32,523 bases of DNA, taken from the IMG/VR virus record IMGVR_UViG_3300036768_000165, positions 1-32,523 of that record, one strand, 5' to 3'. Source of the DNA: a virus. The translations under genes were made by a program, and so were the position numbers. Under the pieces are notes generated by a model. It was not told the origin of the DNA and made no database searches. It was given only the letters and a program-made list of their open reading frames with translations. Shown here one piece after another: positions 9,878 through 14,954 of the stretch. Position 1 is the stretch's first letter. Each line of letters opens with the position of its first letter.

Positions 9878-10846
9878 CTACAAAGTCATGAATGCCCTCA
9901 CGAACGCCTCAGCGACCGGCGCGACGAGGGCATTTCCGTAGGCGCGCAGTCGTCCCACTCTGGCGGCAGCCCCATGAGCCAGCGGGAATGAGCCGGGTTC
10001 AACTGGCCGCCATTTGCCATCCCGGCAGAGGAGCCAGTCAGCATCGCGCCAGAAGCCGTTAGTCGGGTAGGCTGCGTCTCGAAAAAGCCTATATGCGCCT
10101 GCGAGGCTAGGCCCATGTTCACTTTGCGCCCGCTCGGATGCCTCCCCGTCATTGTGGTGTCCGGGTGTGGCCGCTTCCCGCCCATTCCGTCCGATGCCGT
10201 GGGTGTGTTCCAGCCAGCCAATATCGCCTGCCCAGGAAGTTTCATATACTCCGCCCGCGTCCCGTCCGGCTTCATCGGCCCGTAGCAATGCGTGCTGCCG
10301 GTCGCGTCGTTCGCCGTTGGTGTTGTCCACCCTGCCAGCAACGAAGTAAATCCTGTGCCTTCCGTGCGGCGCGCCGAAGCCCGCAGCAGGTAGAACAACC
10401 GCCCCGAAGGCGTAGCCTGCCGCTTCCATGTCAGATTGAACAAGGTCGAGCCAAGCATAGCCGTCTGGACTCGCAACTTGCTCACCAAAGACGACAGGAG
10501 GGCGGCACTGCTCGATGAGGTGGAACCACGCTGGCCATAGGTGCCGCTCGTCAGCAGTCCCTTTTCTCTTGCCTGCCGTGCTGAAAGGTTGGCAAGGGCA
10601 GGAGCCTGTCCACACGGTGCGGTCATCCGGCCATCCTGCTCTTCGCAGTGCGTAGCCCCACACGCCGACCCCGGCAAAGAAATGGCACTGCGTGTATCCG
10701 CGCAGGTCGTCTGGTCTGACATCCTCGATGCTCCTTTCGTCCACGTCACCGGGCGCAATATGCCCGGCCTTGATCAGGTTGCGCAGCCATTGGGCTGCGT
10801 AGGGGTCAATGTCGTTGTAGTAGGCGCGCTGCGCGGTATTGTTCAT
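9878..10846 (-). CDS. C5 cytosine-specific DNA methyltransferase
   Basis: A 322-residue enzyme that would transfer a methyl group from S-adenosylmethionine to carbon 5 of cytosine. Motif I is FFAGVGVWG (about 56-64). Motif IV is GSCPCQPFS, with the catalytic cysteine in PCQ at C85. Motif VI is FGEQV (about 120-124), where ENV is commoner. Motif VIII is HGRHRIYFV (about 161-169), and motif X is [17 protein letters not shown] near the end. The region after motif VIII (about 170-270), where the target-recognition domain lies, is rich in charged residues and glycine. AAGGAG lies just before the ATG. It probably protects phage DNA from host restriction. A second long frame lies inside this gene on the same strand. 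Confidence 0.9.
9898..10722 (-). CDS. Putative overlapping gene inside the methyltransferase gene
   Basis: A 274-residue reading frame on the same strand as the methyltransferase but in another frame, covering most of it. The ATG at 10722 is preceded by AAGGAG at 10731-10736 with eight bases of spacing. The protein resembles a recurrent phage family I recall beside C5 methyltransferases: [20 protein letters not shown], then [21 protein letters not shown] and WNTP repeats ([26 protein letters not shown]) follow, and the end has [18 protein letters not shown]. The function is unknown. It may be a real dual-coding gene, or a shadow that looks conserved only because the methyltransferase is. The good start signal and the family-like motifs favour the first. 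Confidence 0.5.
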
Positions 10847-10852
10847 TTCTCC

Positions 10853-11143
10853 TTACCCGGAAATAGGCCATACAAACCACTCCTGGACCTGTTCCACCCC
10901 TCCATGCTGTTCGATGCCTCTCAAACGAAACCCATCTGCGCCAACAACAACCAGTTGAACATCAACCATTGGATCAATCACTTGTGTCCCATCTTGATTG
11001 ACAAGCTTTGCTTCCTTTACAAATCGATTGAGAACTGGATGTATGCGGTCAGATACATCCAGTTCCCCCTTGAAAACATCCAGTTTCTTGTCATGCGGTA
11101 TTGGCTTACCCGCCTTATAAAGCTGCGTCACAAAAACCTTCAT
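10853..11143 (-). CDS. Hypothetical small phage protein
   Basis: A 96-residue protein that ends six bases before the methyltransferase start and begins inside an ATGA overlap with the upstream gene. A GAGGGAG sequence precedes its ATG. It is soluble, with a beta-rich pattern (MKVFVTQLYKAGKPIPHD, later VQLVVVGADGFRLRGIEQ) and valine-rich strands. It ends QEWFVWPISG. The composition is less GC-rich than its neighbours: the stretch 10930-11060 is AT-rich on the plus strand. The family is not recognised. Confidence 0.65.
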   Translation of the reverse strand: MKVFVTQLYKAGKPIPHDKKLDVFKGELDVSDRIHPVLNRFVKEAKLVNQDGTQVIDPMVDVQLVVVGADGFRLRGIEQHGGVEQVQEWFVWPISG

Positions 11144-11337
11144 TGCACGCTCCCTCTTTGAATTAGCGGTGCGCCATTGGCCGATCTGATCATTGCGCGG
11201 ATCGTCTCAAAAAAGCCCCACCGCACACGGGCACAACACCCGTGGCGGCAGGAAAGGCCGGCAATGTGCCGGCAACGGAGGAGGGGCAGGCTATTGCTGG
11301 CGCCGCCTGCCAGGGCGCTCTCAATGTATCCGCACAT
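11140..11337 (-). CDS. Ash/Icd-like small protein or regulatory leader
   Basis: A 65-residue frame that fits exactly between dut (start overlaps the dut stop by one base) and the next gene (ATGA overlap). Its sequence, GYIESALAGGASNSLPLLR, then CRHIAGLSCRHG and WGFFETIRAMI, reminds me of short proteins next to phage regulatory regions, often named Ash- or Icd-like. In P1 and P4 such regions overlap an antisense regulatory RNA (c4/CI). The DNA also contains a terminator-like hairpin. There is no clear ribosome-binding site, so this may be RNA rather than protein, or both. Confidence 0.4.
   Translation of the reverse strand: MCGYIESALAGGASNSLPLLRCRHIAGLSCRHGCCARVRWGFFETIRAMIRSANGAPLIQRGSVQ
11209..11248 (-). 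terminator. Terminator-like hairpin with T run
   Basis: On the minus strand, arms CCGC-ACGGG and CCCGT-GCGG (plus-strand 11221-11248) form a hairpin with a seven-base loop and small bulges. About six bases further on there is a run of six T (plus-strand A run at 11209-11214). It lies inside the small Ash-like frame between dut and the next gene. It may be an intrinsic terminator, an attenuator or the 3' end of a small RNA. A second perfect repeat, GCCGGC twice around five bases, lies just upstream at about 11258-11274. Confidence 0.35.
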
Positions 11338-11795
11338 CAGTTTCCAGTGCTCCCAAACCCACCCTCGCCGCGCGCCGTTTCGCTCAGGCCGTCGGCCTCC
11401 TCAAACTCCACCCGCGGGACTTCGCAGATGTAAGCCTGCGCGATCCGGTCGCCTGGGTTGATGCGCAATGACAACGGAAGGTTGGTGACGGTCGGACGGA
11501 AGTTCAACAACACCTTGACCTCTCCGCGATAGTCGGAGTCAATGATGCCCGGGAACGCTTCAACGTTATGCTTGAAGGCAAGGCCGCTACGCGATGCGAC
11601 CCTCATCATATAGCCTGGCGGGATTTCAAACGCCAGACCAGTGCCGACGATGATCTGCTTCCCAGGATATAGAAGCCCTCCAGACCCGGCCTCGTCGATG
11701 ACAGTCGCCGCGTAAAGGTCAAAGCATGCCGCCCCATCGGTCGCATAGGTCGGCATGACCGCATGCGGATGCAGCTTTTTCACCTTGATTTTCAT
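11337..11795 (-). CDS. dut: dUTPase (deoxyuridine triphosphatase)
   Basis: A 152-residue trimeric-type dUTPase that hydrolyses dUTP to dUMP and pyrophosphate. All five family motifs are visible in order: AACFDLYAA, SRSGLAFKH, GIIDSDYRGEVKVLLNF, INPGDRIAQAYI and the glycine-rich end ARGEGGFGSTG. I chose the ATG at 11795, which follows GAGGAGGG; an in-frame ATG six codons earlier would put that ribosome-binding site inside the gene. It follows ssb in the early operon and keeps uracil out of replicating phage DNA, as in many siphophages. The C-terminal phenylalanine of motif 5 is present. Confidence 0.95.
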   Translation of the reverse strand: MKIKVKKLHPHAVMPTYATDGAACFDLYAATVIDEAGSGGLLYPGKQIIVGTGLAFEIPPGYMMRVASRSGLAFKHNVEAFPGIIDSDYRGEVKVLLNFRPTVTNLPLSLRINPGDRIAQAYICEVPRVEFEEADGLSETARGEGGFGSTGN

Positions 11796-11809
11796 CTCAT
11801 CCCTCCTCG

Positions 11810-12241
11810 TCAAAATGGCAAATCGTCCTCAAGATCATCAAATCCGCCGGCAGGCGCAGCCGGACGGCTTGGCGAATCCGCCACAGGCTGCGCCTTGCCG
11901 CCAGAATGGCCGCTTCCGGCCTCGCGCCCGCCGCCCGCAAACTCCAGCTCCAGCACACGCCCGACCAGCTTGAAGCCTACGCTTGGCGCTGTCGTCTTCC
12001 ATGTCTCGATGTGGGGATCAGCGAGAACGACGAAGATTGCAGTGCCCTTCGTCAGGTATTTCGCCAGCGCTTCAGCGCGCTTGCCGAACAACGAGGCTTC
12101 GACCCACTGCGTCGGCCTGCTGCCGTCGCTGTCTTTCTGGCCGTAACCGAAGGCGAGGCGCAGGGTGGCAACAGGCTCGCCGCTGTTGGTGTGGCGCAGT
12201 TCGGCATCCGCCCCAAGGCGGGCAAGTCCGGTCATTATCAT
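11810..12241 (-). CDS. ssb: Single-stranded DNA-binding protein
   Basis: A 143-residue OB-fold protein. The N-terminal domain (GLARLGADAELRHTNSGEPV, then ATLRLAFGY, then TQWVEASLFGKRAEALAKYL) fits the bacterial SSB family. A glycine/proline-rich linker (from about 105) leads to the acidic tip DDLEDDLPF, the usual partner-binding tail. GGAGGAG precedes the ATG with seven bases of spacing. It lies between recombination genes and dut, and likely coats single strands during replication and RecT-mediated annealing. The sequence is somewhat shorter than host SSBs (about 170 residues). Confidence 0.93.
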   Translation of the reverse strand: MIMTGLARLGADAELRHTNSGEPVATLRLAFGYGQKDSDGSRPTQWVEASLFGKRAEALAKYLTKGTAIFVVLADPHIETWKTTAPSVGFKLVGRVLELEFAGGGREAGSGHSGGKAQPVADSPSRPAAPAGGFDDLEDDLPF

Positions 12242-12826: not shown

Positions 12827-13051
12827 TTACTCGTCCCTGTCGTCAAGGGACACGGGTTCGAGCTTTCCTGCCCCATGTTTTGCGCGTGCATGTGCATACT
12901 TGATCTCCATGTTGATGGTGTTGTAAATCTGCTGCGCGTAGTTGCACACGGCTTTTGCCGTGCTTGCATCTCGCATACCTTGAGCCGTTGCGATCATTTC
13001 TTCGATCAGGAATGCCCTAAGATCGGCCGTTGTTTTGATCCGCGTGTTCAT
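12827..13051 (-). CDS. Hypothetical small helical protein
   Basis: A 74-residue protein. I chose the ATG at 13051, preceded by GGGAGGG and overlapping the recT stop by four bases. It is almost entirely helical (TTADLRAFLIEEMIATAQGM, then STAKAVCNYAQQIYNTINME) and ends in charged residues (DDRDE). The pattern AKAVCNYAQQIYNTINMEIK resembles small phage early proteins seen next to recT, but the family name is unknown to me. It lies between recT and the gene upstream of ssb. Confidence 0.65.
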   Translation of the reverse strand: MNTRIKTTADLRAFLIEEMIATAQGMRDASTAKAVCNYAQQIYNTINMEIKYAHARAKHGAGKLEPVSLDDRDE

Positions 13052-13971
13052 TGCTTGCCCTCCCCGGCCTCGTAGGCCGCCAGCCATTCGTCATCCGTGT
13101 CAGCCTGGCCGCCTTCTTCATGCACGTCCTGCTCCGCCTGGTGCTCCTCCTTTGGCGGATCGTTCTCGGCATGTTCTGCGTTGTGCTCCAGGATTTCCCC
13201 CGCCTCAACGTCAACGGTCAGCGGGTTATCCTGCGGCAGCCCAAGCTCAGCCCTCTCGTCGGCATCAATGGCCGCCGCCAGCTCAATGCTGATCGGGAGC
13301 CACTTGAACAGGCGGCGCAGCACGGTCTTGAGCGCCATGGCCTCGAAGTGCGTCACCCAAGGGCCGCTCGATCCTGCTTTGGACTGCGCCCTCACTGCCT
13401 CAATCTCACGGCGGCTCATCACGTCGAACTGCACGCCACCGCCCTTGAGCTTGGCCACGGCGTACACGAACCGCAGCTTTTCCGGCTGCACCCGGTTCGG
13501 GTTATCAAAGTCGGGGACGTGGCGCAGGCTGCTGTACATCCCAAGAGTCACCTCAAAGGTGTCACCTTCGTACACCGGTCGGGCCTCGATGCTGACGATC
13601 TGGCCGGATCGGCGCGCCAGTTCGATCATGCCGCGATACCCGACGATGAATTGCACCTCCATGATTCCCTTCTTGCGATTCTCGAATGGGATCAGGTAAG
13701 CGTGCCCAAGCGGGCCGCCCGGCTCCAGCCCAAGCTGGGCGCAGGTCATGAGTGCCCCCAAGAAGCTGTGCTGGTCACATCGCGCCAAGGCGGGGTTCTT
13801 GCGAACCTCGGTGAGCGCTACGCGCGCCAGACGGTCGGCGGTCACGTGCTTGGGGAGCGCCAAGGCCATTTGCGCCTTGATCTTGGGATCGTTGAGAAGC
13901 GCCGCGATGTCGTTGGCGGGCTTACGGGTGACAGGGGTTTTGCCGGTAACGGCGGCCTTGAGGGTTGCCAT
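13048..13971 (-). CDS. recT: RecT-family single-strand annealing protein
   Basis: A 307-residue protein starting at 13971, where AAGGAGG precedes the ATG. The core matches RecT: ALTEVRKNPALARCDQHSF, LGALMTCAQLGLEPGGPLGH, AYLIPFENRKKGIMEVQFIV, GYRGMIELARRSG and VTHFEAMALKTVLRRLFKWL. It would anneal complementary single strands produced by the exonuclease encoded just upstream. The C-terminal 70 residues are acidic and variable (EHQAEQDVHEEGGQADTD), as is common in phage RecT. With ssb and the exonuclease it forms a Red-like recombination set. Confidence 0.94.
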   Translation of the reverse strand: MATLKAAVTGKTPVTRKPANDIAALLNDPKIKAQMALALPKHVTADRLARVALTEVRKNPALARCDQHSFLGALMTCAQLGLEPGGPLGHAYLIPFENRKKGIMEVQFIVGYRGMIELARRSGQIVSIEARPVYEGDTFEVTLGMYSSLRHVPDFDNPNRVQPEKLRFVYAVAKLKGGGVQFDVMSRREIEAVRAQSKAGSSGPWVTHFEAMALKTVLRRLFKWLPISIELAAAIDADERAELGLPQDNPLTVDVEAGEILEHNAEHAENDPPKEEHQAEQDVHEEGGQADTDDEWLAAYEAGEGKQ

Positions 13972-13973
13972 GA

Positions 13974-14954
13974 TCAGACCTCCTTGAGAAGAAACCGGCG
14001 GCTGCCGGGGGTTTCGGTGGTGAACTGTTCGACCAGATCGCGGGGCGGAACCGGCCAATGGTGATAGACCAGCGCCTTCCAGTCGGTGCGCCTGGTCGGC
14101 TTGCTGGCCTTCCAGGTCACCAGCGTCTGGCCGTTGAGCGTGAGAACTGACCGCTCGCCCAGCGCCAGCTTGATGCGCTCCACGGCGGCCTCGTAGTCGG
14201 CCTCCGCCTGCGCCATGCGGGCCTTTGCTTCCCTGGCGGCGTTGTAGGCCGCGATCAGGTCGTCCGTTGCCTCAATGGCCTCGCCGTTGTCGGACGGGAA
14301 AAGGCGCTCCACGTCCTTGGCCGTGGTCGGTTCCGGCGGCTGGCGGGTGAGAACGTGCCGGTGCCAGAACTCATGAGCGCGCTCCAGCATCGCTTTGATG
14401 ACCTCATCGTCGCGGTGAATGCGCCGGATCACCATGCGCTGCCCGCCGATGAGGGCGGCCACGTCCGCCCATTGCAGGTTCGTGATGCCTAGGTACCACA
14501 TGACCTGAGCTTGATGATGCAGGGGCACTGCCTCCTCGTCACCGTCCCGGCCCCACTCACCCGCCTTGTAGGCGCTTGCGGTCTTGACCTCCAGCAGGCC
14601 GTCCGCGCCAAGCAGCGTTCCGCCGTCACCGGCCACGCGCACCCTGCTCCCTGGCGCGACGATGGCGCGGTCAATGTTCCCAATGGCCCACTCATGGGCC
14701 GGGTGGCGAAGGATGCGGCGGACACGCTGGACGGTGCTCTCGGTGCGCTCCGCGTACTCGCGCGCCACGACGTCCTCCAGCAGCGTGCCCCACCGCACCG
14801 CCTCCTCATTGGCTACGGTGTCATCCGCCTGGCCGGTCTTGTCCAGCCAGACGTCGAGCGGGGTCTTCCATGGCGAAAGGCCCAGGATGGCGGCGATGTC
14901 GGAGCCGCCGATGCCGGTCTTTCGTTCCTCAAGCCATTTGCTTTTGTCGTCCAT
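13974..14954 (-). CDS. YqaJ/lambda-exo-like recombination nuclease
   Basis: A 326-residue nuclease of the PD-(D/E)xK type. The N-terminal motif is ERKTGIGGSDIAAILGLSPW (about 10-29). The catalytic block is GADGLLEVKTAS (about 116-127), and HHQAQVMWYLGITN follows with the conserved glutamine, as in YqaJ viral recombinases and lambda Exo. The C-terminal third has a long helical region (EAKARMAQAEADYEAAVERI) that may bind RecT or DNA. AGGAGG lies before the ATG. Two bases separate its stop from the recT start. It should digest 5' strands to give 3' tails for RecT. Confidence 0.92.
   Translation of the reverse strand: MDDKSKWLEERKTGIGGSDIAAILGLSPWKTPLDVWLDKTGQADDTVANEEAVRWGTLLEDVVAREYAERTESTVQRVRRILRHPAHEWAIGNIDRAIVAPGSRVRVAGDGGTLLGADGLLEVKTASAYKAGEWGRDGDEEAVPLHHQAQVMWYLGITNLQWADVAALIGGQRMVIRRIHRDDEVIKAMLERAHEFWHRHVLTRQPPEPTTAKDVERLFPSDNGEAIEATDDLIAAYNAAREAKARMAQAEADYEAAVERIKLALGERSVLTLNGQTLVTWKASKPTRRTDWKALVYHHWPVPPRDLVEQFTTETPGSRRFLLKEV

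Follow-up and report, generated by a model that had tools for sequence, protein, structure and literature searches.

The window is a 32,523 nucleotide stretch of viral DNA, comprising positions 1 to 32,523 of IMG/VR virus record IMGVR_UViG_3300036768_000165. It contains a C5 cytosine methyltransferase (MTase) ORF of 322 amino acids on the minus strand, at 9878-10846. The protein was matched by PF00145 (1.4e-18) and by phrog_363 (9e-89), and the C5 motifs FAGVG, PCQPFS, EQV and GRHR are all found in the MTase frame within the PF00145 domain. Its ribosome-binding site is AAGGAG at 10849-10854 on the same strand. The preliminary description had proposed a second reading frame of 274 codons inside this gene. 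That frame was confirmed as a nested ORF of 274 amino acids in the +1 frame of the MTase, also on the minus strand, running from an ATG at 10722 to 9898 (9898-10722). The ribosome-binding site claimed for it, an AAGGAG eight bases ahead of the ATG, was located on the minus strand at 10731-10736. The phrog_1008 profile matched the nested protein at 1.5e-33 and spans residues 28-264, which is most of the protein.

The features of the two frames are interleaved on the minus strand. MTase catalytic motif IV, PCQPFS, lies at 10580-10597, and strong constraint on the second frame starts there. The motifs first quoted for the nested protein were all found. They include two WxTPTAxD repeats, WTTPTAND (10306-10329) and WNTPTASD (10189-10212), which overlie NTNG and HTHG of the MTase. 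A segment resembling MTase motif IX follows at 9955-10002. It has near-invariant columns in the alignments A1 and A2, and a counterpart within the MTase frame of actinophage enzymes. Motif X of the MTase, represented by the GN of YGNALVAP, is at 9932-9937; in the usual relative it is found 35 nt beyond the MG of the motif-IX-like sequence.

Motif order is locally permuted in group-1 MTases, including that of the window: a motif-II-like YYN[DE]xD precedes motif I (FAGxG) in 202/234 loci. Among the neighbouring ORFs, which were read by eye, are a dUTPase (11337-11813) and a single-strand binding protein (11810-12241). Such genes are what a phage early region would hold. Farther along, two antisense ORFs of 336 and 337 amino acids mirror each other at 13048-14058 (minus strand) and 13051-14064 (plus strand), and one of them is probably a shadow frame.

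Relatives were collected with each protein. A tblastn search returned 272 phage records with the second protein and 420 with the MTase, and scans of IMG/VR supplied 80 loci picked by the second protein and 80 picked by the MTase. In the loci from the IMG/VR scans the second frame was +1 relative to the MTase. Taken by itself, the window leaves some room for a chance open frame in high-GC sequence that was then spread as a mis-annotation. The GC content of its MTase gene is 62%, and synonymous shuffling of the gene gave a mean of 2.9 stops in the second frame, with zero stops in 2.5% of shuffles. The relatives argue against chance. In 57/57 unique loci picked by the MTase alone, the second frame had no stop between motif IV and a point shortly ahead of motif X. 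Stop codons among relatives, which the preliminary description had weighed against a second protein, were almost absent. The two stretches that form the constrained core contained 1 and 5 second-frame stops in 102 non-redundant relatives, vs 219.5 and 101.5 expected, and several of the 5 appear to be sites where the second ORF of a relative ends earlier. High GC is not needed for an open frame, which was also found at 37-45% GC in Microcystis, Acinetobacter, Bacteroides and Lacticaseibacillus phages. Chromosomal C5 MTases, used as a control, were never open (0/29), with 370 second-frame stops vs 376 expected. A chance frame is excluded by these stop counts and by the selection tests given below, and we assign it next to no probability.

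The suspicion of mis-annotation was nevertheless correct in another respect, as databases often label either frame 'DNA methyltransferase' and list only one of them. The record of PMG1 annotates the second frame only. PHROGs contains both frames of the window as phrog_363 and phrog_1008, each labeled 'DNA methyltransferase', and the label is silent on the DNA that they share. Some records annotate both frames, among them that of K1ind3, as 'C-specific methylase' and 'Mte8-like protein', and that of Paenibacillus phage Diva, as g49 and 'g49 internal gene', in each case without an analysis of function or selection. In Mycobacterium phage Constella (L581:1878-2495) an HNH endonuclease gene is annotated within the methyltransferase gene in another frame. 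In Mycobacterium phage Seabastian (L163:1884-2643) the MTase is annotated as genes 75 and 76, which are in different frames, and the second-frame family overlaps gene 76.

Selection was examined in 102 non-redundant MTases using 4392 pairs below 65% identity. Codon identity at identical residues was expressed as a ratio of observed to that expected from codon usage. The ratio was 1.06 ahead of the overlap (codons 8-36), where synonymous sites were saturated, and 1.82 within it, with a maximum of 3.20 in codons 290-301. Past the overlap (codons 317-322) the ratio was 1.00, meaning that synonymous sites were saturated again. The climb from 0.99 in codons 74-85 to 2.10 in codons 86-97 coincides with motif IV.

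The unusual conservation of synonymous sites in the MTase is not by itself proof of translation. It would also be seen if conservation acted on the DNA or RNA, through RNA structure, codon usage or recombination sites, with the second ORF as a by-product. The two classes of silent sites argue against such a constraint. Doubly silent changes, which alter neither protein, occurred in the core (codons 86-313) at 0.46-0.51 per site, as in the control region, vs 0.065-0.145 for changes silent in the MTase only. Sites at which a change alters neither protein thus vary freely, unlike those at which only the second protein would be altered. The loci L272, L304 and L239, in which the C-terminus is duplicated (described below), also weigh against it: the motif of the second frame survives there in a copy whose MTase frame no longer has its own motif. 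Constraint at the level of DNA or RNA was therefore rejected, and we regard it as extremely improbable.

The dN/dS ratios place both frames under purifying selection. In the core, dN/dS was 0.14-0.28 for the second frame and 0.10-0.14 for the MTase, and 70% subsamples gave 0.11-0.25 for the second frame. These values are simple pair counts over codons with single changes, with no correction for multiple hits, and the contrast with the control regions carries more weight than the exact figures. The two proteins are not constrained equally along the overlap. In the catalytic part the stronger constraint falls on the MTase, at 0.05-0.12 vs 0.15-0.35 for the second frame. Over the variable region, where the WxTPTAxD repeats are located, the second protein is the more constrained, at 0.08-0.14 vs 0.39-0.42 for the MTase. 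The second frame is conserved as a protein. The suggestion that one DNA sequence keeps two proteins is thus supported both by the near absence of stops and by purifying selection on the second frame itself, which goes beyond the constraint imposed by the MTase.

The same +1 frame was found outside the group to which the window belongs, in Acinetobacter phage ABMM1, Lacticaseibacillus phage R23.9, Bacteroides phage BS-TP4, Microcystis phage Mel-JY01 and N15. The pair is also carried by epsilon15 and by BASEL phages. An arrangement in the +1 frame is a recurrent one, shared by phages from many phyla of bacteria. With ABMM1 as its basis, a second and distantly related set was built, comprising 103 non-redundant phage genes. 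Three successive segments of these genes held 0, 1 and 4 second-frame stops vs 114, 218 and 174 expected. The second-frame dN/dS was 0.06-0.16 in codons 181-290, and codons 76-180 were uninformative (0.6-1.8). In 55/67 genes of this set the start of the second ORF follows the MTase ATG by 4 nt within ATGAATGA, so that nearly the whole gene is dual coding. In the ABMM1-like phages (L402-L561) both start codons in ATGAATGA stand behind what is apparently one ribosome-binding site. The ABMM1-like MTases have the usual motif order. The second-frame profiles built for the two phage groups also detect one another, at 5.8e-16.

In the window's group the nested protein starts internally. Codons 44-85 of the MTase, corresponding to about the first 44 residues of the second protein, are without amino acid constraint in the second frame, and they contain 1 second-frame stop vs 41.6 expected under synonymous shuffling. 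By comparison, codons 21-40 have 149 stops vs 108 expected. At the ribosome-binding site, Arg is encoded by AGG in 39% of 101 relatives, vs 8% elsewhere in the genes. We considered whether ribosomes might reach the +1 frame solely through a programmed frameshift out of the MTase frame, which would yield a single longer or alternative MTase. Such a fusion would put motifs I-IV ahead of the second-frame domain, and amino acid constraint does start sharply at motif IV rather than at the ATG. Against it, the 44 unconstrained codons between the ATG and motif IV are kept free of stops (the 1 vs 41.6 given above), which points to translation from an internal start. The enriched AGG codon and the frame of the ABMM1-like set, open from 4 nt after the MTase ATG, also count against frameshifting. 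In addition, a ribosome that had shifted would have to return to the first frame to read motif X, which remains there. Frameshift expression is thus disfavoured by the stop-free start region, and we consider it very unlikely.

Several variant loci separate the two frames. In L272, L304 and L239 the MTase carries an insertion of about 150 residues, and its C-terminus is present twice. QLxPxxSxWLMGxPxxWD is retained in the second frame of the first copy, where the MTase frame has lost its own motif. In the second copy the MTase frame is retained, including motif X, and the second-frame motif is incomplete. The MTase frame is interrupted by a stop and the second frame is intact in L182, L190, L210 and L246/L294; L055 is the reverse. 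At L031:3001-4395 the MTase stop is followed by a further 184 codons of the nested ORF, which shares its frame with a downstream reading frame containing NPPF. By eye, this downstream frame resembles an adenine methyltransferase on account of the NPPF motif, and it had no Pfam match.

The MTase frame has motifs I-VIII and X. An HMM of chromosomal C5 MTases aligned to it at motif II-VIII and at motif X, and not at motif IX. The canonical motif IX pattern was found in 22/24 chromosomal enzymes vs 0/250 and 0/129 MTase frames of the two phage groups. The C-terminal end of the second protein reads LNPxxxxWLMGxPxxW, which resembles the canonical LTPRExARLQGFPDxW. The distance from the MG of this sequence to motif X is 35 nt in 208/250 group-1 loci and in 123/129 group-2 loci. 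With a short HMM of canonical motif IX, the second-frame motif did not score above decoys and was not significant; its identity as motif IX is therefore argued from its position and from the actinophage enzymes that bridge the two.

Those enzymes are the MTases of ShiLan, Neville and their relatives (21 genes). They have EWxMGxP within the MTase frame, most of them with LPTP repeats, and motif X usually follows 63-66 nt on, near the canonical 57 nt. Second-frame profiles matched the in-frame segments of the actinophage enzymes at up to 2e-9 (best shuffled decoy, 3.6), and profile-profile comparison gave a match at 7e-12. The single-chain enzymes ShiLan gp70 and Neville gp75 thus have a motif-IX-like sequence at the matching position, with LPTP repeats in ShiLan. 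They differ from the window in that the segment is in the MTase frame and the overlap is absent, whereas here it is in the +1 frame. From its position and these in-frame relatives, we infer that LNPxxxxWLMGxPxxW is probably motif IX. The matches suggest that the small domain of single-chain enzymes, made up of the variable region and motif IX, has its counterpart in the C-terminal half of the second protein.

No other source provided a fold or family for the second protein. Pfam includes no family for it, and PDB sequence profiles gave nothing. Two AlphaFold models were poor, with pLDDT of 63 and 55. In Foldseek searches no solved fold was matched, and among viral models the convincing matches were to family members only.

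The second frame might instead encode a real protein with a separate function, such as anti-restriction or DNA binding, that merely shares its DNA with the MTase. Single-chain enzymes contain nothing equivalent to the conserved segment of the second protein that lies over motifs IV-VIII, and the few loci with a broken MTase frame and an unbroken second frame also fit a separate function. The nested protein is basic (pI 9.9 in the window), which would be in keeping with such a role; however, codon-shuffled controls were equally basic, so the pI is not evidence for DNA binding. No stand-alone copy was found among 398 proteobacterial genomes (phrog_1008, phrog_27243) or in profile scans of viral and genome contigs, and each second-frame match that was examined falls inside a C5 MTase gene. 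The preliminary description had asked for the same family encoded without an overlap. It was not found as a separate gene, and its C-terminal half was found within the MTase frame of the actinophage enzymes. This in-frame fusion, and an MTase frame that is missing exactly the motif that the second protein appears to hold, further weigh against a separate function, which we judge unlikely.

C5 MTases made of two polypeptides are a known kind. The small subunit of M.EcoHK31I is reported to be encoded inside the large one, in another frame. If so, the arrangement is like that of the nested ORF described here. M.EcoHK31I, which recognizes YGGCCR, is a naturally split C5 MTase (Lee, Kam and Shaw 1995, as described in PMC3404938 and PMC3439449). 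Its large subunit has motifs I-VIII, X and the TRD, and its small subunit has motif IX only (PMC3404938). The likeness to the window lies in two polypeptides, the larger with motifs I-VIII and X, which is here the MTase frame. There are also differences. M.EcoHK31I is one cellular restriction-modification system and the window encodes an orphan phage MTase; the two are likened by description, not by sequence. The TRD belongs to the large subunit of M.EcoHK31I, whereas here the second frame is the better conserved across the TRD region. M.AquI (CYCGRG) is another C5 MTase built from two subunits, and its motif IX is in the smaller of them (PMC3404938). The phage locus, as read here, would share with it the division into two chains and a motif IX carried by the smaller one. 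M.AquI differs in that the small chain also has motif X and half of the variable region, and it is not described as nested (PMC3404938). In the open-licence literature we did not find a description of the nested MTase arrangement in phages or of its breadth among them, although it may be noted elsewhere.

The analogy with M.EcoHK31I and the position of the motif make an enzyme of two subunits the best explanation of the locus: a C5 MTase in which the gene of the large subunit also contains the coding frame of a small-domain subunit. We give this explanation a probability of about 80%. The outer frame would produce the large subunit, with catalytic motifs I-VIII and motif X, and the ribosome-binding site within the gene would direct synthesis of the second protein from the +1 frame. 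The C-terminal half of the nested protein, with its WxTP repeats followed by the motif-IX-like segment, would be the counterpart of the small domain of single-chain enzymes. As is the case for M.EcoHK31I, the two chains would then come together to form one active enzyme. This enzyme would methylate phage DNA, probably as protection against host restriction.

A recurrent annotation problem is settled by these results. At every locus examined phrog_363 and phrog_1008 are two frames of one DNA, and listing one of them alone probably omits a subunit. If the two-subunit reading is true, codon-optimised cloning of a phage MTase of this type from its annotated frame would abolish the second subunit, and the resulting enzyme would be inactive. 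Research on overlapping genes gains a large and deeply sampled test case with built-in controls, namely the flanks, the doubly silent sites, the chromosomal enzymes and the natural decoupling of the frames by duplication. As to its history, we raise tentatively the possibility that the small domain, comprising the WxTP repeats and motif IX, has switched reading frame in evolution. In actinophages it resides in the MTase frame, and in phages of proteobacteria, firmicutes, bacteroidetes and cyanobacteria in the +1 frame over the MTase's own variable region. Should both layers bind DNA, two superposed recognition parts of one enzyme would be encoded by a single stretch of sequence, and the overlap would count among the same-strand overlaps most widely distributed in phages.
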